Origin: an uncultured Amylibacter sp.
GTDB taxonomy: Bacteria > Pseudomonadota > Alphaproteobacteria > Rhodobacterales > Rhodobacteraceae
Reading direction: 5' to 3'
DNA length: 64,000 nucleotides
Assembly (NCBI GenBank): GCA_947497475.1
Contig: CANMGS010000001.1
Span: 310,001-374,000, forward strand
Shown here: one piece after another, positions 25,073-45,242 of the stretch
Layout of the letters: every line of letters begins with the position of its first letter
Position numbering within the stretch: position 1 is the stretch's first letter
Position numbers and translations under genes: made by a program
Notes under the pieces: model-generated
What the model was told of the DNA's origin: nothing
Databases searched by the model: none
The model's input: only the letters and a program-made list of their open reading frames with translations

Positions 25073-26409
25073 TAGATGCCTGCGTAAATCTTCGTGAGTT
25101 TTTCCAAAGCCATTTCAGGTGTCATTTCTTCGCTTTCACCCGTCTTGCGCGATGTCAGTTCAACCACACCGTTTTTTAAACCACGCGGTCCAACCGTGAT
25201 GCGCCATGGCATACCGATCAAATCCATCGTTGCGAATTTACCGCCTGCACGCTCGTTACGGTCATCGTAAATTGGATCAAGGCCAAGGGCGATTGCAGAT
25301 TTGTACAAAGCCTCACAAGCTGTATCTGCTTCGTCATCACCTTGCTTCAGGTTTACGATACCAACACCAAACGGTGTTACACCTTCTGGCCAGATAATAC
25401 CTTTGTCATCATGGCTAGCCTCGATAATGGCGCCAATCAAACGGGATACACCGATACCGTGCGACCCCATGTGCACAGGTACATCTTTGCCCTCTGCATT
25501 GGTGACTGTGGCGCCCATAGCTTCGGAATACTTTGTTCCAAAATAGAAAATTTGACCAACTTCGATACCGCGGGAAACTTTGCGACGTTCCTCTGGTACT
25601 TCATTAAACAATGCCTCGTCATGCGTTTCATCTGTACGGGCATAAGGTGTCGTCCACTCTTTCATTATATCCGCACATTGATCCCAGTTGTCGTAATCAA
25701 CTTCGCGATCACCCAATGTCAGGTCTAAGATTTTAGTGTCATAAAACACTTCACTTTCGCCTGTATCCGCCAACACCAAGAATTCATGCGTATCATCGCC
25801 ACCGATTGGGCCACTGTCGGCACGCATTGGGATAGCTTTCAACCCCATACGTTCATAGGTGCGTAGGTAGCTGACCAAATGACGGTTGTAGGCATGCAAA
25901 GCACTATCTTTATCAATATCAAAATTGTAGCCGTCTTTCATGAAAAATTCGCGGCCACGCATCACGCCAAAACGTGGGCGACGTTCATCACGGAACTTCC
26001 ATTGGATTTGGTAAAGCGTTTGTGGCAAATCTTTGTAAGACCGCACATGGCTGCGGAAAATGTCTGTAACCTGTTCTTCATTCGTTGGGCCATATAGCAT
26101 ATCGTGACCGTGGCGATCCGTAATACGCAACATCTCTTCGCCATAGTCATCATAGCGTCCACTTTCACGCCAAAGATCGGCAGATTGTAATGTCGGCATC
26201 AGGATTGGATTGTGCCCAGCGCGTTGCTGTTCTTCGTGCACAATGTTTTCCAATTTGCGTAGAATTTTAAAGCCCATCGGCAACCAAGAATAGATCCCAG
26301 ACGATGCCTGCTTGATCATCCCTGCCCGCAACATTAAGCGGTGGCTGACGATTTGCGCGTCTGTTGGGTTTTCTTTGAGCGTTGGTAAAAAGTAACGTGA
26401 CATACGCAT
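25072..26409 (-). CDS. proS: Proline-tRNA ligase
   Basis: Class II synthetase for tRNA-Pro, about 445 residues. The N-terminal [20 protein letters not shown] and the motif 2 region [17 protein letters not shown] are typical. It lacks the roughly 180-residue cis-editing insertion of E. coli-type ProRS, matching the short alphaproteobacterial form. A C-terminal anticodon-binding domain follows (from about 350). The ATG at 26409 is favoured over 26478 by homology and a GGAG box 11 bp upstream; 26403 is also possible. First gene of the operon leading to the Lol exporter. Confidence 0.96.
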
Positions 26410-26491
26410 GGGCGCGCAACTCCGATCTAAGTGGATATAATTGCCATTTGTTCTATGGGAAAAGGGACCCGTTAGCAATTATGAAACTTGG

Positions 26492-27958
26492 TTATTCTAT
26501 GCGCATCTCTGGTGTGCGTTCCATTGTGTTTGCCAAACTGTTCAATCGACGTTCAACAACCTCTCCCATCACTCCTGCACTCTCTGGATCAATCTCTAAG
26601 ATCAGCCTGTCTTTGATCAATTTCAACTTACCCATATGTGCAACATCTGGACCACCTAACATAGCGCCCAAGCGCATCGCGCGGCCTACTGTTTCGGCCT
26701 GAATGCGATCCTCTGGGGATAACATTGCATTCAACTCGGCCAGTTTCGTGGCTTTGGGTTTGTTGCGGTATCGATGGATCAAAGCAACGGCCAAGAAAAT
26801 ACATTCCTTATGAGATAATCCCAAGAGATTTCCCCGCGCTACATAGTCAAAACTGACTTCACCACGGTAATCAGGATGTGCACGCCAATTCACATCATGT
26901 AAAAGGCACGCCGCCCAAATCAAGCGTTTGCGAGCTTCATCGACATTCGTGAACAGCGCTAACACCCATGCGTATAATGTCGTGCCAAATTCAGCAAAAC
27001 GCGCGTCTGTGCGTTCAAAATATTGGCATGCTTCAATCAACGGATCACGGCGTTGCACACGTGGCGGCATCTTTTCATAAAGGACACCTTCACGAATACC
27101 AAAGGATGAGAATGTCACCTTTTTGATATCTAAGGCTTTCAAAACACCCAACATGACCTTTGCAACAAGATGTACATAATCCAAACGGTCGACGTTTACG
27201 GCACCATAAACTGCGATATCTTCACGTGAGTTTTTCAAAACCCATTTTAAGAAGTCTTTAAAATCAGCAGCCGTTAATGTGTATTCGTTGATCACTGACA
27301 ATGGATAGTCTTTGCGCGCCATGTCTAAAGCTGCCAAGGATCGAATTGTACCGCCAATCAGATACAATTGATGTGCCCCTTCAATCCCAGTGGTCAGCCC
27401 CATAAGTTGCATTTTAATTTCAGCTTTTAAAGCGTCTTCATCTGCTTCAAACTTTTGTAAATGTAATGGGCCCAGCTCGGAGGTGCGGGCCAGATCAATA
27501 TCGCCCTCTCCGATCTTTGCTAACTCCATTGAGGAGCCGCCCATATCGCAAACTAGTGCTTGTACATCAGGTCGGCAAAAGAACACACCTTGTGCAGATA
27601 GTGCTGCCTCTTCATGTCCCGATATAACGCGCAACGATATGTTGGTTGCCAGCAGCACATCATCACAAAAAGCTTGCCCATCACTGGCATTACGCACAGC
27701 TGCTGTAGCAACTGTATGGATTTTTTTAACCCCCATACGTTTGGCAATTTCGACAAAACGCTCAATCGCAGCCAAAGCACGTTTGCGTCCATCAGGGTTT
27801 AAGACACCACTATCGGCCAACCCACGCCCCAAACCACAGCTGACTTTTTCATTATAAAACTGCAAAGGAGCGCGTTTCGTGCCATAATACACAACCAAAC
27901 GAACAGAATTTGAACCCACATCAATCACTGCGGTTTTATCGGGTTCCGTCATATTCAT
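26492..27958 (-). CDS. ppx: Ppx/GppA phosphatase (exopolyphosphatase)
   Basis: A 488-residue actin-like-ATPase-fold enzyme that hydrolyses polyphosphate and/or pppGpp. The N-terminal phosphate loop AVIDVGSNSVRLVVY and second loop LVCDMGGSSMELAKI are the ASKHA signatures, with ISGHEEAALSAQGVF between them. The C-terminal HD-like helical domain contains CLLHDVNWRAHPDYRG. It starts 3 bp after the hdaA stop in a leftward transcript. Confidence 0.92.
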   Translation of the reverse strand: MNMTEPDKTAVIDVGSNSVRLVVYYGTKRAPLQFYNEKVSCGLGRGLADSGVLNPDGRKRALAAIERFVEIAKRMGVKKIHTVATAAVRNASDGQAFCDDVLLATNISLRVISGHEEAALSAQGVFFCRPDVQALVCDMGGSSMELAKIGEGDIDLARTSELGPLHLQKFEADEDALKAEIKMQLMGLTTGIEGAHQLYLIGGTIRSLAALDMARKDYPLSVINEYTLTAADFKDFLKWVLKNSREDIAVYGAVNVDRLDYVHLVAKVMLGVLKALDIKKVTFSSFGIREGVLYEKMPPRVQRRDPLIEACQYFERTDARFAEFGTTLYAWVLALFTNVDEARKRLIWAACLLHDVNWRAHPDYRGEVSFDYVARGNLLGLSHKECIFLAVALIHRYRNKPKATKLAELNAMLSPEDRIQAETVGRAMRLGAMLGGPDVAHMGKLKLIKDRLILEIDPESAGVMGEVVERRLNSLANTMERTPEMRIE

Positions 27959-27961
27959 GTA

Positions 27962-28639
27962 TTAAGCGCCAATCATTTCATCAAGTACACGTCCAGCCAG
28001 ACGTTTATTGATAGGCTTTTTACCAGTTAAAGCCGCACGGTCCAAATTTTTCACAAGATCACCTGTAAAAGCGAACGAACGATCCATACGTTTCAGGATG
28101 TATTCGATCAAAGACGGCTCAACATCTATTTGGCGGTCGGAAAACAGTTTCACCAAAAGCACGGATAACAGCACATCATCAGGGGCGGAAAGTTGTGCTA
28201 ATTGTGTGCCGGATAAACGGCTTAACAAATCAGGCAATTGAATGCCCCACTCCCCAATCACACCGCTCCCTGTCATCAACAATGGATGGCCCATTTGTTG
28301 CATCAAGTTGTGCAGATGAAACAATGCATTTTCACCATCTGCATCCCCTGCAAGCTGATGTACATCTTCAATGACAACAGGTTGCTCTGCTAAAGTTTCC
28401 AAACGTTCATAAGCCAGCGCATTGGCTTTTAACGTTATTGCCCCCACATCTTCGGCCCAAATCTGTGCCAAATGTGTTTTGCCTGATCCCACAGGGCCAC
28501 ACAAAACCAGCTTGCCCAACGCCCAAGATTGCCAGTTTTCCATCATACGCACGGCAACGTCATTGGCAGGGGAGACAAAGAAATCTTCGCGCCCAAAAGC
28601 CGTTTTTGGCGGCAGGTCAAAAATAAGTTGTTCTGGCAT
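27962..28639 (-). CDS. hdaA: DnaA-related regulatory inactivator HdaA
   Basis: A 225-residue AAA+ protein like the ATPase domain of DnaA without its DNA-binding domain IV. Walker A is CGPVGSGKTHLAQIWAE and the Walker B-like stretch is VVIEDVHQLAGD. The N-terminal MPEQLIFDLPP, with its QLxF-like word, is the beta-clamp-binding motif of Hda proteins, which promote DnaA-ATP hydrolysis after initiation. It sits between an AI-2E family gene and ppx, a common alphaproteobacterial arrangement. Confidence 0.9.
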   Translation of the reverse strand: MPEQLIFDLPPKTAFGREDFFVSPANDVAVRMMENWQSWALGKLVLCGPVGSGKTHLAQIWAEDVGAITLKANALAYERLETLAEQPVVIEDVHQLAGDADGENALFHLHNLMQQMGHPLLMTGSGVIGEWGIQLPDLLSRLSGTQLAQLSAPDDVLLSVLLVKLFSDRQIDVEPSLIEYILKRMDRSFAFTGDLVKNLDRAALTGKKPINKRLAGRVLDEMIGA

Positions 28640-28643
28640 TGAA

Positions 28644-29753
28644 TTATGACTTTGGTTTCACAGCCCGTTTACGGGGCTTTGCTGCAGCTTTTGGTTTCAT
28701 GGCCTCTGTGCCGCGATAAAGTTTGCCTTGCAAGTACTGACCGATGCCAAAGCGGAAAAAGACGCCTAAAATAGCCGCCACAGGGACAGCCACCAACATA
28801 CCCGTAAAGCCCATTAAGCCACCAAAGGCAGATAGCGCAAACATTAACCAAACAGGGTGAAGGCCGACTGATCCGCCAACCAATTTCGGCGTTAAAACAT
28901 TTCCTTCCAAAACTTGGCCAATCACAAAAATCACAGCCACAACCACGATCCATTCAGGCGTGTTCCAAAACTGGAACAATGCAAGGCCTATGGAAAGCAC
29001 ACCACCAATCACGGATCCGACATAAGGAATGAACGTCAGCAATCCTGCGATCAACCCGACAACCAGACCGAACTGCAATCCGACAACCATCAGCGCGATC
29101 GCATAAAATGTTCCCAAAATCGCACAAACGGTCAATTGTCCGCGCACAAAGCCCGCTAATACAACATCTATATCACGCGCCAATGATCGCAGTTGTTCCA
29201 GATGGTCTCGCGGTAACCAACTGTCCACGGTTTCGATCATATCGTCCCAATCCAAGATCATATAGAACGCCACAACAGGTGCTACGACAACAAAGATTAC
29301 AGCATCTAAGATTGAGAATGCTGATGCTAATACAGCATTCGCAAAAGCAGCGCCTTGCCCACTTAAAACATTCGCTATGGATTGTAGGCCACGATTGATT
29401 GCAGAACCTTCTTCCATCATGCTGGGGAAACGTTCCGTTAAAATCGTTTGGATATGTGCAAAATATACTGGCGTTGCTTTTACCAAAGCCCCCAATTGTT
29501 CTACCAACATCGGTACCAGAAGCACGATCATGAGAATACTAAAGACCAATGCCACAGCTGTTATTATGATTGTTGCAGAAACACGACTGAATTTCATCGC
29601 CTCTAATCGGTCTGCGACAGGGTCCATGAAATAGGCAATCGCCATACCTGTGATAAATGGCAGGATGATATCCCCTAGCATCCACATAGCCAAAAGGAAG
29701 ACGACAAAACCGATGCCCCAGTAGGATACTTGCTGCCGAACTGTTAACGCCAT
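28644..29753 (-). CDS. AI-2E family transporter (PerM/TqsA-like)
   Basis: A membrane protein of about 369 residues and seven to eight helices, with the AI-2E/UPF0118 signature in its C-terminal half (LIAGLLTFIPYVGSVIGGVL, then NVLTPKLVGGSVGLHPVWL). The C-terminal tail is lysine/arginine-rich. Members export autoinducer-2 or act as Na+/H+ exchangers; the role here is unknown. The start at 29753 removes an unlikely N-terminal extension that would overlap the divergent Lin0512 promoter. First gene of AI-2E-hdaA-ppx. Confidence 0.9.
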   Translation of the reverse strand: MALTVRQQVSYWGIGFVVFLLAMWMLGDIILPFITGMAIAYFMDPVADRLEAMKFSRVSATIIITAVALVFSILMIVLLVPMLVEQLGALVKATPVYFAHIQTILTERFPSMMEEGSAINRGLQSIANVLSGQGAAFANAVLASAFSILDAVIFVVVAPVVAFYMILDWDDMIETVDSWLPRDHLEQLRSLARDIDVVLAGFVRGQLTVCAILGTFYAIALMVVGLQFGLVVGLIAGLLTFIPYVGSVIGGVLSIGLALFQFWNTPEWIVVVAVIFVIGQVLEGNVLTPKLVGGSVGLHPVWLMFALSAFGGLMGFTGMLVAVPVAAILGVFFRFGIGQYLQGKLYRGTEAMKPKAAAKPRKRAVKPKS

Positions 29754-29873
29754 ATTGGCCCCCAAACTACTTTTATCCCTTGTCCAACAGGTGCCCATGA
29801 AATGCAAGTCCTTGATCATCTTGCCCTTAGCGCCAAAACCCGCCATATCTTGCGCAACTTCAGGAGATTTATC

Positions 29874-30224
29874 ATGGCAAAAACACGTATGTTACATGAG
29901 TTTGGGATGGGCAGTTCGCTGCGCCGCACCGATTACACAGGGGCGGCAATGCGCGCCTTAAAAGATGCGCTTTGGCACAATTCCATCAGCATCGCACCCG
30001 CGTTTGGGTTTCCAAAAGAAGCGATGATTGTCGATGTGGATGTGGCCGTGCAAAAACCAGATCAGGTGAATGTCGAGGAATTGAAAGCTGTGTTTCCATA
30101 CGGCCAAATCAATGTATCCGCATCGGCAGGTGGTTTAGATGTGCCTAAACCTGACGGCTCGGGGATCACCATCGTGGCACATGCCGCTATTGTCGTGTCT
30201 TTTGATATGGAGTTGGCATCATGA
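29874..30224 (+). CDS. Lin0512 family protein (first of pair)
   Basis: About 116 residues starting MAKTRMLHEFGMGSSLRRTD, matching the Lin0512 family of conserved small proteins. The pattern of an N-terminal EFGMG strand, a helix (TGAAMRALKDALWHNS) and alternating beta strands (MIVDVDVAVQKPD) suggests a compact alpha/beta fold. Function unknown. The ATG at 29874 has an AGGAG box. The stop overlaps the start of a paralogue at 30221 (ATGA), so the two subunits are probably made in a fixed ratio and may form a hetero-oligomer. Confidence 0.82.
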   Translation: MAKTRMLHEFGMGSSLRRTDYTGAAMRALKDALWHNSISIAPAFGFPKEAMIVDVDVAVQKPDQVNVEELKAVFPYGQINVSASAGGLDVPKPDGSGITIVAHAAIVVSFDMELAS

Positions 30225-30586
30225 GTGTGGAACGTATCATTTTGGAAATGGGCGCAGGCAATGATCTTTATGGTCAAGATTACACCAAAGCCGCCAACCG
30301 TGCTGTGCAAGACGCTTTGCGCCACAGCTCGCTGATTTTCTTTCGTTCGTTGGATATTCCATCCGAAGAAATGACTGTGAAAGTCACCATTGGGGTGCAA
30401 GAGCCAGATAAGGTGGATATCGAGGCTGTTGCTGCCACATTGCCACGCGGACGTGCCGAAGTGACAGCCGTGTTTGGTGGACAGAATGTTGTGGATACGG
30501 AAAATGATACGGTATCTGTGATTGCCACCGCTGCTATAGAGGCGTTTGTGGATATTGATCAATCCAAATGGAAGCTCAGCGAATAA
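30221..30586 (+). CDS. Lin0512 family protein (second of pair)
   Basis: A 121-residue paralogue of the preceding gene: LEMGAGNDLYGQDYTKAANR and MTVKVTIGVQEPDKVDIEAV align with the corresponding EFGMG and MIVDVDVAVQKPDQVNVEEL stretches. Function unknown. Translationally coupled to the first copy and followed by a clear terminator at 30642, so the pair forms a self-contained two-gene operon. Confidence 0.82.
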   Translation: MSVERIILEMGAGNDLYGQDYTKAANRAVQDALRHSSLIFFRSLDIPSEEMTVKVTIGVQEPDKVDIEAVAATLPRGRAEVTAVFGGQNVVDTENDTVSVIATAAIEAFVDIDQSKWKLSE

Positions 30587-30641
30587 GGCCATCTTTGGAT
30601 TTGGATATTTAAGGAAAAAAGAAATAAAGACACGCTTTTTG

Positions 30642-30673
30642 CCCCGTTGGCCTGATTTGGCTGGCGGGGTTTT
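30642..30673 (+). terminator. Rho-independent terminator of the Lin0512 operon
   Basis: An 11-bp stem, CCCCGTTGGCC (30642-30652) with GGCTGGCGGGG (30659-30669), pairs completely on RNA if three G-U pairs are allowed. It has a 6-base loop and is followed by TTTT. It lies 55 bp after the stop of the second Lin0512 gene. Confidence 0.85.
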
Positions 30674-30915
30674 GCATCTCTATATGTAATGTAAGTTATA
30701 AAAGGTGGCGCCACCTGCGTGTGGTATAATGCCTGCTAGGGGTTGATAGCCCCTATACCTATTCCAACTGTTGTTTCGGTGGTTTCCTCATTTGACGCTG
30801 TTACCCGCCCTTCGAAAACCCATGAACCACTTTTGCTAGCGGGGTTAATTATACAGCGAGAATGGTTATGGAAGTGTTAGGGGTGCGTTCGGTAGGAATA
30901 TCCGTCATTAAAAGT
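30674..30915. other. Non-coding stretch with small palindromes
   Basis: No credible gene. It contains a 14-bp perfect palindrome, AGGTGGCGCCACCT (30703-30716), and a hairpin TAGGGG (30737-30742) with CCCCTA (30750-30755). A TATAAT-like word lies at about 30725. The right end runs into the former 3' end of the phosphoesterase gene (see 30916-30978). Confidence 0.5.
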
Positions 30916-30978
30916 CTATATTTTCAGCTTTATAGGACGACGCAAATGCCCGTCAGGCCTATCTACGGAGGATGCATT
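30916..30978 (-). pseudogene. Detached C-terminal codons of the metallophosphoesterase
   Basis: On the minus strand this stretch reads NASSVDRPDGHLRRPIKLKI followed by TAG. It is out of frame with the annotated gene but comes into frame if one copy of the 35-bp repeat at 30979-31048 is removed, giving TTYINASSVDRPDG in continuity. The I-N-A-S word is the normal final beta strand of this phosphoesterase family, so this is the original C-terminus, separated by the duplication. Confidence 0.75.
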
Positions 30979-31604
30979 TATATATGTTGTCCTAAATTTT
31001 TTCGACATTCCTCTATATATGTTGTCCTAAATTTTTTCGACATTCCTCCAGCAGCGTGAACATGGCCATAACAATGGATATTAGGCGCGATTTCCGCGAC
31101 TCTATTCGCAAGGTTTGGGCATCCAAGGTTCTGCCCACGACTAGACCTATCAAAAATACCCGCAGGTGGAGTATGTGTAATGAGAACATCAGTTTCTACA
31201 GGGATTTTTGACCATTTTTCCTGTAACATCATTGAATCTGCATAAAAAGCATGTCCTTTTAGAAACGGCACCCATGGTGTTCCGTAAAAAGTTAATCCTT
31301 TATATAGATAGGCTTCATCTTCCAGATAAATCGCATTCTTAAAAAATGGAGTTGTTTTGTCACCTCTATCTTCAAGAGCACGGTCATGATTACCACCAAT
31401 ACATAAAATAATATCAAAATCTTGACGCCCGAACCAAGCATCTACATTTTCGATATCATCAGGCCTATTTTCAAATAGATCAAACATATCTCCACAATGA
31501 ATAAGAACATCACCCTTGAGTGTGCCCAATTCGTTATGGCGCATATGGGTATCGCTTATAATTGTGAGTTTAATGCGAGACAAGTTGGACAAAATCTTCC
31601 ACAT
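30978..31604 (-). CDS. Metallophosphoesterase, C-terminus altered by a 35-bp duplication
   Basis: A 208-residue calcineurin-like phosphoesterase of the UPF0046/MPPED-like group. The metal-binding motifs are in order: ISDTHMRH (DxH), IHCGDMFD (GDxxD), IGGNHDRAL (GNHD), a His in LITHTPPAGI and CYGHVHAAG (GHxH). All catalytic motifs are intact. After TTYI the reading frame is shifted by an exact 35-bp tandem duplication, giving a new tail EECRKNLGQHI and an early stop. The ancestral frame would end at 30916. The protein may still be active, because only the last strand is lost. Confidence 0.85.
   Translation of the reverse strand: MWKILSNLSRIKLTIISDTHMRHNELGTLKGDVLIHCGDMFDLFENRPDDIENVDAWFGRQDFDIILCIGGNHDRALEDRGDKTTPFFKNAIYLEDEAYLYKGLTFYGTPWVPFLKGHAFYADSMMLQEKWSKIPVETDVLITHTPPAGIFDRSSRGQNLGCPNLANRVAEIAPNIHCYGHVHAAGGMSKKFRTTYIEECRKNLGQHI
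30979..31048. repeat. Perfect 35-bp tandem duplication
   Basis: Two identical, directly adjacent 35-bp units (30979-31013 and 31014-31048), each starting TATATATGTTGTCC and ending GACATTCCTC. Thirty-five is not a multiple of three, so the duplication shifts the frame of the phosphoesterase on the minus strand. Complete identity of the copies points to a recent event. Confidence 0.97.
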
Positions 31605-31676
31605 AATAATGTCCTATCCTCTAATTCTTAATCAGCACATCACCAATCAATAGTTCGGTCTAAATTATAGAATACC

Positions 31677-32813
31677 TTACCGCAGCCCCAACTTCTTCAA
31701 CAACCGATCCCGTTTCATCAACCACCAGCCCGACTCTATCGGCCATGCGGCGTGGTTTTCATCAGCTTCTAATGCTGCAGCCGCATGAAGCGGCCAGTTC
31801 GGGTCGTCTAACAACTCACGCGCCAGTGCCACCATATCGGCCTGTCCGTTTGATACTAAATTTGCGCAAGCCTTTGCATCCCATAAGAATCCGACAGCCA
31901 TTGTGGGTATGTCAGCCTGTTTGCGGATTTGCTCTGCGAACGGCACCTGAAAGCCCTGTTCGATCACCATGCGACGCGGGCGGTCTTTGCCGCCGATGCC
32001 GCCTGTGGAACAGTCGATGATATCAACGCCTGCAGCTTTTAGCGCTTTGGCGGTTTCAACTGTGTCTTCTACCTCTACCCCGCCATCCAGCCAATCAGTT
32101 GCAGACAGACGAAATGCCAGTGGGTATTTTTCGGGCCAATGGGCGCGAATGGATTTCGCCACTTCCACCGCAAAGCGTCTGCGTTTTTTTGTATTGCCGC
32201 CCCACCCGTCTGTGCGTTTGTTGGCAATCGGTGACAGGAACTGATGCACCAAGAAACCATGGGCCGCATAGACCTCGATCATCTTAAAGCCCGCTTCCAA
32301 CGAACGACGTGCGGCTTGACCAAAGGATGCGATCACACGGTGAATATCTGCTTCGGACATTTCCAATGGTGTTGGCCACCCGTCTGCATAAGGAATGGCG
32401 GATGGGCCTATGGCTTGCCAAGGAGCCTCTCCACGTTCTGCAACATCTTCATCATCTACAGGTGTTTCGCCATGCCATGGGCGACGTTCGGATGCTTTGC
32501 GGCCTGCGTGGGATAATTGGATGGCGGGCACGGCACCCTCTTGTTCGATAAAACTTGTGATCTGTTTCAGCTTTTCAATTTGGCCATCTTCCCAAATGCC
32601 CAGATCCCCATGTGTGCGACGCGCATCTGCTTCAATCGCAGTTGCTTCGGCATAAACAACAGCAGCGCCGCCCAATGCGAAACGACCTAAGTGAACCAGA
32701 TGCCAGTCATTCGCATAGCCATCTATGGCGCGGTATTGGCTCATCGGTGATACAGCGATGCGGTTTTTAAAGGTGATGTCTCGTAATGTGTACGGCGTAA
32801 AAAGTGTGGTCAT
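31677..32813 (-). CDS. NADH:flavin oxidoreductase (Old Yellow Enzyme family, NamA/YqjM-like)
   Basis: A 378-residue FMN-dependent ene-reductase-fold enzyme. It begins MTTLFTPYTLRDITFKNRIA and continues with SPMSQYRAIDGYANDWHLVH, typical of the YqjM class. The catalytic/binding segment IQLSHAGRKA holds the substrate His, and VYAAHGFLVHQFLSP with NKRTDGWGG is the family block. The C-terminal phosphate-binding region includes ADMVALARELLDDPNWP. It reduces activated alkenes with NAD(P)H; the natural substrate is unknown. It starts 2 bp after the NAD kinase stop. Confidence 0.92.
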   Translation of the reverse strand: MTTLFTPYTLRDITFKNRIAVSPMSQYRAIDGYANDWHLVHLGRFALGGAAVVYAEATAIEADARRTHGDLGIWEDGQIEKLKQITSFIEQEGAVPAIQLSHAGRKASERRPWHGETPVDDEDVAERGEAPWQAIGPSAIPYADGWPTPLEMSEADIHRVIASFGQAARRSLEAGFKMIEVYAAHGFLVHQFLSPIANKRTDGWGGNTKKRRRFAVEVAKSIRAHWPEKYPLAFRLSATDWLDGGVEVEDTVETAKALKAAGVDIIDCSTGGIGGKDRPRRMVIEQGFQVPFAEQIRKQADIPTMAVGFLWDAKACANLVSNGQADMVALARELLDDPNWPLHAAAALEADENHAAWPIESGWWLMKRDRLLKKLGLR

Positions 32814-32815
32814 AT

Positions 32816-33580
32816 TTAGACGAATTGTTCCCTGATTAAACGTTCTTCCAAACCGTGGCCTGGATCAAAAAGGATGCGGTGCGATACATTTGGCTCGTTG
32901 CAAATTTCAACCGACAACACATGGATCGCTTCTTTGCCATCCGCCACTGCATTCACAGGGCGTTTTTCAGGTTCCAACACATCAAACCTCACATGCGCAG
33001 ACATCGGCAATAATGCACCCCGCCAACGACGCGGGCGGAAGGCTGCCATTGCTGTTAATGCTAAAATCTCTGCTCCAATCGGCAAGATCGGGCCGTGGGC
33101 AGAATAGTTATACGCAGTGGAACCCGCAGGTGTAGACAACAAGGCACCATCACAAACCAATTCGCTAAGACGTTCGCGCCCATCTACGGATATTTTTAGT
33201 TTTGCCGCTTGCGGACCGTGGCGGATCAATGAGACCTCGTTAATAGCCAACGATTCAACTGTTGTGCCATCCTCGCATTGTGCTGTCATTTTTAAGGGGT
33301 GAATAACCGCCTCTTCCGCTTCTTCCAAACGGGTGAACAGGCAATCGTCTGAATATTCATTCATCAAGAAGCCAACAGAGCCGCGATTCATTCCATAAAC
33401 GGGTGTAGATAAATGCTCGGTTGAATGCAGGGTTTCCAGCATCAAACCATCCCCGCCAAGGGCCACAATCACGTCAGCCTCTTCAATGGGAACGTTGCCG
33501 TATTCCTTGGATAACAGTTCAAATGCGTCACCGGCATCATCTGCGCGACTCGCTACGAAGCTTAATTTTTTGCGACTCAT
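32816..33580 (-). CDS. nadK: NAD kinase
   Basis: About 254 residues; phosphorylates NAD to NADP with ATP or polyphosphate. The hallmark GGDG motif is in IVALGGDGLMLETLH, the NE/D region in LAINEVSLIRHGPQAAKLKI, and GALLSTPAGSTAYNYSAHGP is the conserved nucleotide-binding loop. The ATG at 33580 (MSRKKLSFVASR) is favoured by family length and an AAGGTG box; a GTG at 33613 is possible. Followed by an NADPH-type flavoenzyme in the same transcript and divergent from glyA. Confidence 0.93.
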   Translation of the reverse strand: MSRKKLSFVASRADDAGDAFELLSKEYGNVPIEEADVIVALGGDGLMLETLHSTEHLSTPVYGMNRGSVGFLMNEYSDDCLFTRLEEAEEAVIHPLKMTAQCEDGTTVESLAINEVSLIRHGPQAAKLKISVDGRERLSELVCDGALLSTPAGSTAYNYSAHGPILPIGAEILALTAMAAFRPRRWRGALLPMSAHVRFDVLEPEKRPVNAVADGKEAIHVLSVEICNEPNVSHRILFDPGHGLEERLIREQFV

Positions 33581-33629
33581 CTGCTCTGTCACCTTATTCA
33601 CAGGCGTTTTCACACCAAAATCTTCTTAA

Positions 33630-33649
33630 AAGTTTCCTATAGGAAACTT
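33630..33649. promoter_or_regulatory. 20-bp perfect palindrome upstream of glyA
   Basis: AAGTTTCCTATAGGAAACTT is a perfect 20-bp palindrome in the divergent nadK/glyA region. A second weaker copy of the pattern, TTTCC-AATA-GGAA, follows at about 33651-33663. Tandem operator-like sites before glyA suggest a dimeric regulator of glycine/one-carbon metabolism. I cannot name the regulator. Confidence 0.6.
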
Positions 33650-33773
33650 ATTTCCAATAGGAACCGTTGATATGCGGCGTCTTGTACACCACGCTTGTCG
33701 TTTTACAACTTACATACATAAATCCAATATACTAGGACAGTCTCAGATTTATAGACCTTTAGGAGTGAGTGCT

Positions 33774-35066
33774 ATGACAACAGCTCGTGACGCTGGATTT
33801 TTCACAGAAGACCTATCTTCTCGTGACCCTGAACTATTCGGTTCCATTACACAAGAATTGGGCCGTCAACGCGATGAAATCGAATTGATCGCATCTGAAA
33901 ACATTGTGTCTAAAGCAGTGATGCAGGCACAAGGTTCTGTGATGACCAACAAATATGCCGAAGGCTATGCAGGTCGTCGTTACTATGGCGGTTGCCAATA
34001 TGTAGACATCGCAGAAAACCTTGCAAATGACCGCGCAAAACAATTGTTCGGCTGTGAATATGCAAACGTTCAGCCAAACTCTGGTTCTCAAGCAAACCAG
34101 GGTGTTTTCCAAGCATTGATTCAACCAGGTGACACAATCCTAGGTATGGATTTGGCTTCAGGTGGTCACCTTACTCACGGTGCAGCCCCCAACCAATCTG
34201 GTAAATGGTTTAACGCTGTTCAATACGGCGTGCGCAAAGAAGACAACTTGATCGATTATGATCAAGTGGCTGCTTTGGCAAAAGAGCACCAACCAAAGTT
34301 GATCATCGCTGGTGGTTCGGCTGTTCCACGCCAAATCGATTTCGCTAAATTCCGCGAAATCGCAGACAGCGTTGGCGCATATCTACACGTAGACATGGCA
34401 CACTTTGCGGGTCTTGTGGCAGCGGGTGAGCACCCAAGCCCTTTCCCACATGCGCACGTTGCAACAACAACAACGCACAAAACATTGCGTGGCCCACGCG
34501 GTGGTATGATCCTGACGAACGACGAAGCGATCTTTAAAAAGACAAACTCTGCGATCTTCCCAGGTATCCAAGGCGGTCCTTTGATGCACGTGATTGCAGC
34601 CAAAGCAGTTGCATTCGGCGAAGCATTGCGCCCTGAGTTCAAAGATTACCAAAAGCAAGTGCGTGCAAATGCTGTTGCCTTGGCTGATCAGTTGATCAAA
34701 GGCGGTTTGGACATCGTAACAGGTGGTACAGACACGCACGTGATGTTGGTTGACCTACGTCCAAAAGGCGTGACAGGGAACATCACTGACAAAGCTTTAG
34801 GTCGTGCACACATCACATGTAACAAAAACGGTATCCCGTTTGACCCAGAAAAACCAACAGTAACATCTGGTATCCGTTTGGGCACACCAGCGGGTACAAC
34901 ACGTGGCTTTGGCGAAGACGAGTTCCGTCAAATCGCTGACATGATCGTGGAAGTGGTTGATGGCTTGGCTGCAAACGGCGAAGAAGGCAACGCGGAAGTA
35001 GAAGCAGGCGTTCGCGCTAAGGTTTCTGAGCTTTGTGCAAAGTTCCCACTTTACGACGATCTGTAA
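33774..35066 (+). CDS. glyA: Serine hydroxymethyltransferase
   Basis: A PLP enzyme of about 430 residues that interconverts serine plus tetrahydrofolate with glycine plus methylene-THF. Motifs include the N-terminal [20 protein letters not shown], the Tyr-rich [18 protein letters not shown] and the PLP lysine in [14 protein letters not shown]. The C-terminal [20 protein letters not shown] is also typical. The start at 33774 has an AGGAG box; the open frame upstream to 33672 is not part of the protein. It has its own terminator at 35090. Its product feeds the same one-carbon pool used by the GcvT-type flavoenzyme at 9-11.5 kb. Confidence 0.98.
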
Positions 35067-35089
35067 GGTTTAAGACTTACTAAGTTTTA

Positions 35090-35123
35090 GGCGCGCAAGG
35101 CAAATGTCTTGCGCGCCTTTTTT
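35090..35123 (+). terminator. Rho-independent terminator of glyA
   Basis: A 10-bp GC-rich stem, GGCGCGCAAG (35090-35099) with CTTGCGCGCC (35108-35117), an 8-base loop and a run of six Ts. It lies 23 bp after the glyA stop. Confidence 0.93.
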
Positions 35124-35170
35124 GTGTTCCATAAGCTGAAGGTTCATTACATTGTTTTAGTGAGAACCAA

Positions 35171-35653
35171 ATGAGTTTAACAATCAGAGCATTTGACAAG
35201 ACCGATGTAGATGCTTTTCTCATGCTTTATCGGGAATGTTTGGCGTATTATCAAATCCCCCCTGCCACGTCAGAACAAGAAGAACGTGTGTTATCTCTAC
35301 TAATCGCAGAGCGTCATATGGCATGTCATATAGCATTTGAGGGAACGACACCTTTGGGGTTTGCAACATGGGGGCTTAACTTTCCAGCAGGTGCAGGCAC
35401 ATCGTTGGTTATGAAAGAGCTCTTTGTATCCTTAAATGCACGTGGCAAGGGCGTTGGCAAAGCTTTGCTATCAACATTGACTGATGTCGCGCGGCATGAG
35501 GGATGTATACGGTTTGACTGGGCGACAGACGGATCGAATAAAGCTGCACAGAGGTTTTACGCTGCCATTGATGCCCCGAAGATGGCAAAGCAGAACTACC
35601 GTGTTTCCTCAGACGGCTTTGATGCATTTCAAGCTCGCCTGAGTGAAAAATAA
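35171..35653 (+). CDS. GNAT-family N-acetyltransferase
   Basis: A 160-residue acetyltransferase. The acetyl-CoA pyrophosphate loop (motif A) is seen in VSLNARGKGVGKALLSTL, and a following DWATDGSNKAAQRFYAAID is the motif B region. The N-terminal MSLTIRAFDKTDVDAFLMLY is a typical GNAT opening. The acceptor substrate is unknown. It stands alone between the glyA terminator and a small lipoprotein gene. Confidence 0.88.
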   Translation: MSLTIRAFDKTDVDAFLMLYRECLAYYQIPPATSEQEERVLSLLIAERHMACHIAFEGTTPLGFATWGLNFPAGAGTSLVMKELFVSLNARGKGVGKALLSTLTDVARHEGCIRFDWATDGSNKAAQRFYAAIDAPKMAKQNYRVSSDGFDAFQARLSEK

Positions 35654-35768
35654 ACGCAATAAGCAAACGTTCCAAGCTATGATTTGGTCACTTCAAGAAC
35701 ACACACCTTGCGTGCCTTTTTAGGGGTCGTTACAAGAGATGAAATATATCTTTGTGGAAAGTCCCCAA

Positions 35769-35987
35769 ATGAAGCGCACACTTGCGATATCCTTGCTGAT
35801 TATGACGCCGATTATGCTGAGTGCATGCGATATCAAAACCGCTGTTCCAGAGTTTGATTACCCAAAATACAAACCAGATACCAAATGGCCAAAACTGTCA
35901 CCTACGGCGGAATTAGAGCAAGCTTCTGACGTTGATATGGAAGCAACGCTTGAAGAGATCGAAAAGTTAGAGGCTTTAGCCCAATAA
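35769..35987 (+). CDS. Small predicted lipoprotein
   Basis: A 72-residue protein whose first 20 residues form a lipoprotein signal with lipobox LSAC, so Cys20 is the likely acylated N-terminus. The mature part is short, acidic and proline-rich at first (FDYPKYKPDTKWPKL), then helical. A GGAAAG box 9 bp upstream favours this ATG over 35739. Function unknown. It lies 85 bp upstream of hom and might share its transcript. Confidence 0.75.
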   Translation: MKRTLAISLLIMTPIMLSACDIKTAVPEFDYPKYKPDTKWPKLSPTAELEQASDVDMEATLEEIEKLEALAQ

Positions 35988-36072
35988 CACGCAAAATACA
36001 CACCGCTTGCGCATTGCCCCCACTGGGCAGTTGCGGTAACAAACCTGCATAAATCAAACGGAGCGACGAACG

Positions 36073-43199: not shown

Positions 43200-45242
43200 T
43201 TAAAAGGCAAACGTCAGACCGAGGCTACCGATGTGGCTTTCTGAGTTACTTCCAGACGTGCCAAATTGATAATCCGCAGTTATTGAAAGCGTATCATTGA
43301 TATCGAATTTAGCTCCTAGATCAAAAACAAAACCGCGGCCATCTGGATCATCAATCGTCAATGCCGTTGGTGTTGCCGTTGAACCAATCGCACTCACGGA
43401 TTGTCCACCACTATAGCTTAGGTAATCTTCATACCCGATACCTGCTGAGAAGAAGCCTTTTAAGCCAGTACCGTTATCAAAGTTTTTGACCGCTTTTAAA
43501 TTAACAGCACCAGTCACAGCATCAATTGTACGCTCACCAAATTGTAGCGGGGCAAATGGACCAGTTTCTGTAAAGCCATCTAACTCTGTTCGGAAATAAC
43601 CCAATGTCGCAGATGGTATAACAGAAAATCCATTCTGTTGAATGTTATATCCGACCTCAAGAACCGCGCTATACTGACGACCATCAGTCTCAGAACTATT
43701 CGTTAGACCACCAACACCAACACTACGTTCTACGTCAGAGATATCGATAAGGGCGGCGCCAATGCTGGCTGCTGCAAATACATTGCCAAATGTCTTTGTT
43801 GCGTAAAAATCAACACCGTAACTTTCTGTATCAAATGTCGTACCAGGTTGAGATCCGCTTCCCGATATAAATGATCCTTGTACACCTACAACAAGATCAT
43901 CGCTTTGATAAAAATCTGTACCAAACCGAACACCACCAAAACTGGATTCAACGCTTGGTGTAGACCCACGTGCGGCAACTTCACTTCGTCCTGCTATCGC
44001 TTCAAAAAATGCTGCACGACGCGTAAAAGACTGGCCATCAAATGAAAGCGCATTTTTCGACACGACACCACCTGCACCACTTGTATTTGTAAAAAATGAG
44101 CGGCCACGGCTTAATGCAGAGCTTGTCACAGCTTGGCGTGACACTATTGGAGCGTCAGCAACGCCACTTATGGCATCCCCGCCAATTTCTGGGTTCACAG
44201 ATTGCGCAACCAATGCAGCAACTAAAGCATGCCCTGCATTCGTCGGATGAACACCATCTGCAAATAGAAACGTGTTTTGTGTCGCCTGATCAGCAGTTGC
44301 ACAAGCTGGATCAAGCAAACAAGCGCCCGTCACATTCGAAAACCCAAATGCATCAGGGTCTGCAATAACCGCATCAAATGCAGTCGCCACATCAACCTGA
44401 ATAAAGTCTGTGTCTGTATCTGTTGCAGCAAGATTAGAAACACCAGTGGCTAAAGTCGTATTGTATACATCTGTAGCGATAGAGGCTGCACCAAGTACGC
44501 CTGCACGAGCAGTCTCTGCTGCTATAGCTTGTGCGGCTGCATCACCCCCTGCTGCACCAACTGCGGCTGCAGCACCTGCTGCGGCTGAATTTGCACCAGC
44601 AACTGTTGCAGGTAACAACGCAAAATCTGGTAAGTTAAAGATAATCGCCTGACCTGGCCCGCCCCCAGGGACAAACGCACCACTCGTCAGGGTTCCAATA
44701 TCGTTCACGGCTAGTCCGCCAACATTTTGTCCCAGAGCAAATGCATCCGCAGCACTTCCAACAGTTGGCAATCCTGCAAAAAAGTTATTCGCACCAGCCC
44801 AATAGGTTATAGTATCCTCTTGGCTAATGGTTCCGCCAGCCGCCGCAAATGCGCCGATCTGTTCTGTTACACCTGGCAACAAAGCACCTAAATTACCGCT
44901 ACCAGCAAAAGCACCACCAACGGCTAAATTCACATCACCCGTTACACCACCCCCTGCAAAGAATACAGACTGTGGGCTTGTAGCATTCACATTAGTAGGA
45001 TCTTGTTGGCCTCCTAAAAGCTGCTCAACGGCAGTTAAGCCTCCCCCTGTCGTAAAGCGAACTCCAGAAAAAGGTGCACCCGGTGCTAAGCCTCCTGATA
45101 AAGCAGCGACATTACCATTATCCGACAGACTGTCGCCAAACGAAATGACGTCTCCTTCAAATGTAACAGATTGTGCAGATGCTGCCGTCCCAACGGCAAT
45201 CACTGCAACGCTTGTTAGTAAAAGCGTTTTAGTTAAGTTCAT
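43200..45242 (-). CDS. GDSL/SGNH esterase autotransporter
   Basis: A 680-residue outer-membrane protein. A signal peptide (about 1-23, ending AASAQ) is followed by an SGNH hydrolase passenger domain with block I SFGDSLSDNGN and block V FADGVHPTNAGHALVA holding the catalytic Asp and His. Ala/Gly-rich helices lie in between. A C-terminal autotransporter beta barrel (about 410-680) ends SLGLTFAF with the terminal Phe expected for BAM recognition. It resembles EstA-type surface esterases. It appears monocistronic, and an inverted repeat GCCACCA/TGGTGGC lies just past its stop (43147-43175). Confidence 0.92.
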   Translation of the reverse strand: MNLTKTLLLTSVAVIAVGTAASAQSVTFEGDVISFGDSLSDNGNVAALSGGLAPGAPFSGVRFTTGGGLTAVEQLLGGQQDPTNVNATSPQSVFFAGGGVTGDVNLAVGGAFAGSGNLGALLPGVTEQIGAFAAAGGTISQEDTITYWAGANNFFAGLPTVGSAADAFALGQNVGGLAVNDIGTLTSGAFVPGGGPGQAIIFNLPDFALLPATVAGANSAAAGAAAAVGAAGGDAAAQAIAAETARAGVLGAASIATDVYNTTLATGVSNLAATDTDTDFIQVDVATAFDAVIADPDAFGFSNVTGACLLDPACATADQATQNTFLFADGVHPTNAGHALVAALVAQSVNPEIGGDAISGVADAPIVSRQAVTSSALSRGRSFFTNTSGAGGVVSKNALSFDGQSFTRRAAFFEAIAGRSEVAARGSTPSVESSFGGVRFGTDFYQSDDLVVGVQGSFISGSGSQPGTTFDTESYGVDFYATKTFGNVFAAASIGAALIDISDVERSVGVGGLTNSSETDGRQYSAVLEVGYNIQQNGFSVIPSATLGYFRTELDGFTETGPFAPLQFGERTIDAVTGAVNLKAVKNFDNGTGLKGFFSAGIGYEDYLSYSGGQSVSAIGSTATPTALTIDDPDGRGFVFDLGAKFDINDTLSITADYQFGTSGSNSESHIGSLGLTFAF

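Follow-up and report, generated by a model that had tools for sequence, protein, structure and literature searches.

MPPED1 and MPPED2 are class III metallophosphodiesterases, and the rat MPPED2 enzyme is represented by three solved structures (PDB: 3rl3-3rl5). Metal-dependent phosphodiesterase activity has been demonstrated for the fly orthologue dMpped, according to the excerpts available of PMC10547211. For changes of the kind described here, the closest precedents are found in other types of genes. Reversible tandem duplications are known from cap3A, cap8E/wchA, and tts of the pneumococcus, for which the accessible parts of two articles (PMC4243769 and PMC4022640) offer secondary accounts of the work of Waite et al. 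These duplications are short and exact, lie in a coding frame, and abolish the normal product. The microhomology-mediated tandem duplications in ssp1 of fission yeast likewise consist of two copies within a gene and are potentially reversible; according to the available portion of a review (PMC13207564), they use pairs of short homologies at their edges.

In the window (the whole stretch of 64,000 nucleotides that was analysed), a minus-strand ORF of 208 aa encodes a protein which resembles rat MPPED2 in sequence, predicted fold, and metal motifs. The calcineurin-like domain Metallophos (PF00149; E value 5.1e-10) was found above the Pfam cutoff, and the PDB sequence relatives returned by phmmer at E 0.001 are the three rat MPPED2 entries, with 3rl4 the best (E value 2.8e-30). 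The metal-site motifs DTH, GD, GNHD, THTPP, and GHVH agree with the calcineurin-like pattern of D-x-H, GD, GNH, TH, and GHxH; they show no variation across all 8 aligned rows and are intact, the latter as the sequence-only reading had stated for the motifs upstream of the altered end. The closest solved structure is MPPED2, both by sequence and by Foldseek. Unlike rat MPPED2, however, the window gene in its present frame has neither the C-terminal NA(S/T/A) turn nor the last strand. On these sequence characteristics, the gene is read as a broken MPPED1/2-like member and not as a different family.

Two identical 35-bp units lie head to tail near the 3' end of this gene (Table 1). TRF reports a period of 35, 2.0 copies, and a 100% match, and a scan for the unit allowing up to three mismatches returned only these two copies within the window, with none expected from 100 shuffles. 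A search of positions 27000-36000 against Rfam at the gathering score returned no known RNA at the site of the duplication. Because 35 is not divisible by three, the frame is shifted. No unit was removed from the DNA for these readings; the frames were compared with each other and with those of relatives. The present frame ends in ...TTYIEECRKNLGQHI, i.e., EECRKNLGQHI followed by TAA. The last 35-bp unit still encodes TTYINASSVDRPDGHLRRPIKLKI in another frame, which is open, and when the second unit and the sequence beyond it are read in the third frame, they encode MSKKFRTTYINASSVDRPDGHLRRPIKLKI up to a TAG stop at 30918-30916. Both the exact adjacent duplication and the frameshift of the gene end, which had been proposed from the letters of the window, are borne out by TRF, the mismatch scan, and the frames through both units.

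Table 1. Positions in the window of the phosphoesterase gene, the 35-bp copies, and the former C-terminal coding stretch.
Feature	Position	Strand	Basis
MPPED2-like metallophosphoesterase ORF, frameshifted form, 208 aa	30978..31604	minus	ORF list; PF00149 E 5.1e-10; 3rl4 E 2.8e-30
First 35-bp copy in transcription order, ancestral frame (..GMSKKFRTTYI)	31014..31048	minus	Sequence, TRF, mismatch scan, frame reading
Second 35-bp copy, shifted frame (EECRKNLGQHI, stop TAA), with A_AAA_AAT and A_AAT_TTA in -1 phase	30979..31013	minus	Sequence, TRF, mismatch scan, frame reading
Ancestral coding region of the C-terminus, no longer in frame, MSKKFRTTYINASSVDRPDGHLRRPIKLKI and TAG	30916..31008	minus	Third-frame reading; match to L031 at 14/24 residues

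The relative age of the two ends was judged from the tails of 28 homologous loci, namely 7 close loci (L002 from the family search and L031-L036 from a search of genome contigs), 8 loci from the phylum search (L068-L075), and 13 viral loci, some of which have identical tails. Beyond the GHxH motif, every one of the 15 bacterial loci has the sequence NA[STA], as do 8 of the 13 viral ones. It is missing from four viral tails, so that NA[STA] is not shared by all of the wider family, and one further viral tail is unreadable. All 15 bacterial homologues read in one uninterrupted frame through to the NA[STA] tail, while the EECRKN tail occurs in none of the 28 loci (15 bacterial, 13 viral). The nearest homologue (L031; 63% identity) ends in TTYVNASSVDRPHNALRHPVQIDVRTA, and 14 of 24 residues match the out-of-frame tail of the window. 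Because NA[STA] is found in every bacterial homologue and EECRKN in no locus, the frameshift is derived, i.e., the comparison of tails identifies the INAS-type tail as the ancestral end and the present tail as the newer one. The direction of the change, a duplication and not a loss, rests on the homologous tails because the collections searched contain no close one-copy relative. The sequence-only reading had described INAS as the normal final part of this enzyme group and had proposed a comparison of the C-terminus with relatives; the former agrees with the bacterial homologues, and the latter yielded no EECRKN end. It had also named a very recent event as one of several possible readings of the identical units. 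No decay was seen in the out-of-frame DNA of the former INAS tail, which fits a recent event, and with the units identical as well the duplication does look recent.

The consequences for the protein were approached with AlphaFold2 models of L031 and of the window protein, both made from one set of 8 aligned sequences. The mean pLDDT and pTM are 80.4 and 0.86 for L031 and 64.9 and 0.70 for the window protein, values that fall short of proof of damage because they come from two different queries and a shallow alignment of 8 rows, in which the position of the window protein may account for part of its lower confidence. The L031 model has a strand at 187-191 (TTYVN) and another at 206-211. The model of the window protein keeps the TTYI strand (194-197), the rest beyond it is gone, and residues 200-208, the last 9, fall below a pLDDT of 50. 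With Foldseek, the three MPPED2 entries rank 1-3 for both models; TMq is 0.85-0.87 with L031 as the query and 0.59-0.61 with the window protein. Taken together, the models suggest damage to the window protein.

Searches in several collections show that the gene is rare. Among 394 genomes of the family, 82 have any match at E 0.001, and identities of at least 50% occur only in the own genome and in one other (G328, 53%); the other family matches have 24-41% identity, many over part of the query. Within the genus, 11 of 33 genomes have a match at E 1e-10, with E values of 1.1e-109 for the own genome and 1.1e-15 for the next, so that a score at the level of an orthologue is confined to 1 of 33, the own genome. 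At E 1e-30, the class search returned 1 of 385 genomes, again the own, and the phylum search 5 of 398, the own included. The gene is also A+T-rich, with a G+C content of 38.3% against 46.4% for the window; in 400-bp steps over 26000-35999, the steps over the gene range from 36.5 to 43.5% G+C and the other steps from 42.5 to 54.2%. In a relative, genome G402, the flanks are syntenic with the window (31676-35127 at 91.3% and 26531-30573 at 82.8%). The interval that separates the dispersed repeat 3' of the gene from the NADH:flavin oxidoreductase gene (30901-31675 in the window) there contains a gene other than the phosphoesterase, an ORF of 145 aa (L047 6019-6453, minus strand) with a T6SS_Tdi1_C domain (E value 2.9e-13). 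The locus is probably a small variable gene spot which holds a rare, acquired gene, and horizontal acquisition of the phosphoesterase gene is probable. From a variable spot and a rare gene it would follow that loss is easily tolerated.

A donor among phages or plasmids was considered and rejected, since only relatives below 60% identity were found there and no recent donor. The window protein is matched at E 1e-5 by 6 plasmid and 91 phage records, and the 13 viral loci have at most 38% identity save for one match of 52% over 29 residues. Phages do carry MPPED-like phosphoesterases: 72 of the 91 matching records are Flavobacterium phages, e.g., of the vB_FspM_immuto and vB_FspP_elemo groups.

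We propose, with a probability of roughly 0.8, that a recent spontaneous flush 35-bp duplication impairs a dispensable, probably acquired MPPED2-like gene and that no evolved switch is involved. The duplication, which shifts the frame near the 3' end of the gene, would have arisen spontaneously. Every metal ligand remains in the product, as does the beginning of the last core strand (TTYI); the conserved turn NAS and the strand C-terminal to it are lost, with 11 foreign residues in their place. Judging from the models, the frameshifted product is most likely unstable or low in activity; partial activity is possible because all metal-site residues lie upstream of the change. The phosphoesterase gene would be dispensable in this lineage, and the mutation would be tolerated for that reason. 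Slippage or recombination between the two copies could revert the change, as a by-product and not as an evolved switch. The duplication, its frameshift, the older tail, and the rarity of the gene are established; recency, horizontal acquisition, loss of activity, and dispensability are each what we infer, and the most likely meaning of the locus is an ordinary one, i.e., a recent loss of function in a dispensable gene. As a single event, it captures cleanly how a short flush tandem duplication without microhomology breaks a gene that is rare and probably acquired.

How the duplication arose was addressed by scanning the window and twenty stretches of 20 kb, together 464,000 of 3,022,946 bases of the genome, for exact tandem duplications whose units measure 12-499 bp. 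The 35-bp array is the sole one in the sampled bases. The run of matching bases is exactly as long as the period, which leaves 0 bp of microhomology at the edges of the junction. The array thus does not fit the microhomology-mediated type of fission yeast, with its short homology pairs (PMC13207564, available portion), although it shares with it the two copies within a gene. An origin by simple slippage, or by filling and joining of a staggered break, is possible.

Given the pneumococcal precedent, a reversible ON/OFF switch deserves consideration. The duplication would then form and collapse at an appreciable rate and the population would contain both alleles, as reported for the capsule genes (PMC4243769 and PMC4022640, accessible parts). 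The exact, frame-shifting duplication in the window agrees with this, as do the perfect identity of units whose length is not divisible by three and the still open frame of the former tail. However, reversibility has been reported for the capsule genes, whereas here one state is seen in one genome and in another kind of gene. That no second allele was seen counts for little, as each species is represented by one genome in the collections. None of the 29 related loci (28 homologues plus the stretch of G402 in synteny; 131,095 bases) contains an exact tandem duplication with units of at least 12 bp, the 464 kb of the genome hold no other, and to our knowledge MPPED2-like metallophosphoesterases have no phase-variable role. 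Reversion by collapse of a unit is plausible in principle, and a 35-bp unit could revert more often than a 9-bp insertion. For the latter, a rate of at most ~1e-5 is to be expected from the accessible part of PMC4022640. We therefore regard a switch as improbable, and the reversible slippage switch suggested by the sequence-only reading is so far unsupported by the related loci, by the single array in 464 kb, and by the lack of microhomology. If both alleles were to coexist, duplication-based phase variation would extend to a metallophosphodiesterase.

Ribosomal slippage might compensate for the frameshift. In this case, ribosomes would slip by -1 on one of two heptamers of the second unit, A_AAA_AAT or A_AAT_TTA, return to the INAS frame, and make some full-length protein with 12 additional residues. 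Both heptamers follow the X_XXZ_ZZN pattern; the second unit (CGA AAA AAT TTA GGA) places them in phase, and in the first they are out of phase. A_AAA_AAT lies 7 nt after a GAGG stretch resembling a Shine-Dalgarno sequence, and a -1 slip there re-enters the INAS frame. An imperfect stem lies 3' of the heptamers, but the downstream fold is no better than that of shuffles (z -1.0; equal or greater stability in 32 of 200 shuffles). In an E. coli survey, 61% of the heptamers tested (39) were prone to frameshifting even with no stimulator, and codons UUN and AAN shift more on average than CCN and GGN (PMC4066793, partial text). On the other hand, the same part of the survey rates ZZN codons of the heterogeneous type, AAU and UUA among them, as poorer shifters than homogeneous ones, and both heptamers are missing from its list of 18 underrepresented motifs which shift at >0.10% without a stimulator, an absence that could also mean that the motif is not underrepresented. 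By the rules given in those pages of PMC4066793, A_AAA_AAT and A_AAT_TTA would be weak slippers. Moreover, the -1 arrangement is not conserved, as 15 of 15 bacterial homologues reach NA[STA] in one uninterrupted frame. Rescue by slippage is accordingly very unlikely.

The same low probability applies to an artefact of assembly or sequencing, in which the organism would have a single 35-bp unit. The duplication is indeed known from one genome only. Ordinary sequencing reads are longer than 70 bp, and an assembly error is unlikely because the 70-bp array fits well inside one of them; in addition, the contig measures 1.69 Mb in an assembly of 11 contigs that is 99.87% complete. Least probable is a combined scenario of bet-hedging, in which one duplication both breaks the gene and brings slippery heptamers into -1 phase behind a Shine-Dalgarno-like stretch; the broken allele would leak a little full-length enzyme by slippage and could collapse to one copy, as a partly self-correcting mutation. 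Three further candidates were rejected: a mobile repeat or array unit, as no further 35-bp copy exists within the window at up to three mismatches; a transposon target-site duplication, as these are typically shorter than 35 bp and there is no DNA between the units; and a genome-wide habit of short duplications, with one array in the 464,000 bases sampled.

Directly 3' of the phosphoesterase gene, at 30622-30900 of the window, lies a dispersed intergenic repeat of ~270 bp that contains a covarying hairpin and the palindrome GGTGGCGCCACC; its core spans 30776-30834 on the minus strand. When positions 30600-31700 were used for a DNA search of the genus, many matches were returned, and all except the own full-length one fell within query bases 4-301. 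Searching with a 59-position model of the core (R1) yielded 15 copies in the own genome; of the 33 genomes of the genus, 8 have matches, and in the family it was found in 1 of 198, again the own, under stricter filters that lose weak matches. The alignment comprised 17 of 21 copies (the window and L047-L066, without L047, L059, L062, and L064), 12 from the own genome and 5 from G402. Of the 22 pairs predicted by RNAalifold, 13 were counted; these are standard in 97.2% of cells. Changes on both sides were found in 14 cells versus 2.8 in shuffles (reached by 0 of 500), for a structure derived from the consensus of the same copies, which favours it; the further pair types are less striking (11 versus 9.0, reached by 22 of 500). 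The G-U pairs fit the minus-strand orientation of the window (GU in 13 of 17 at one pair) and would be mismatches on the other strand. Rfam returned no match in 27000-36000 at the gathering score or in five repeat loci at E 0.1, and a crude scan found no ORF of at least 90 aa across 17 of 18 repeat copies. At the syntenic locus of G402, the repeat has 97.3% identity over a 226-bp core and 91.0% over 279 bp; compared with 91.3% for the flank, the whole element is no better kept. The repeat is a candidate for a lineage-specific structured RNA or a REP/MITE-like element, and with its covarying hairpin it may merit more attention than the duplication. Beyond it lie two adjacent Lin0512-family genes (29802-30224 and 30221-30586) which overlap by 4 bases (PF09585; E values 1.8e-30 and 9.5e-33). 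At 44532-44587 of the window, TRF detected imperfect tandem repeats of 15 and 18 bp.
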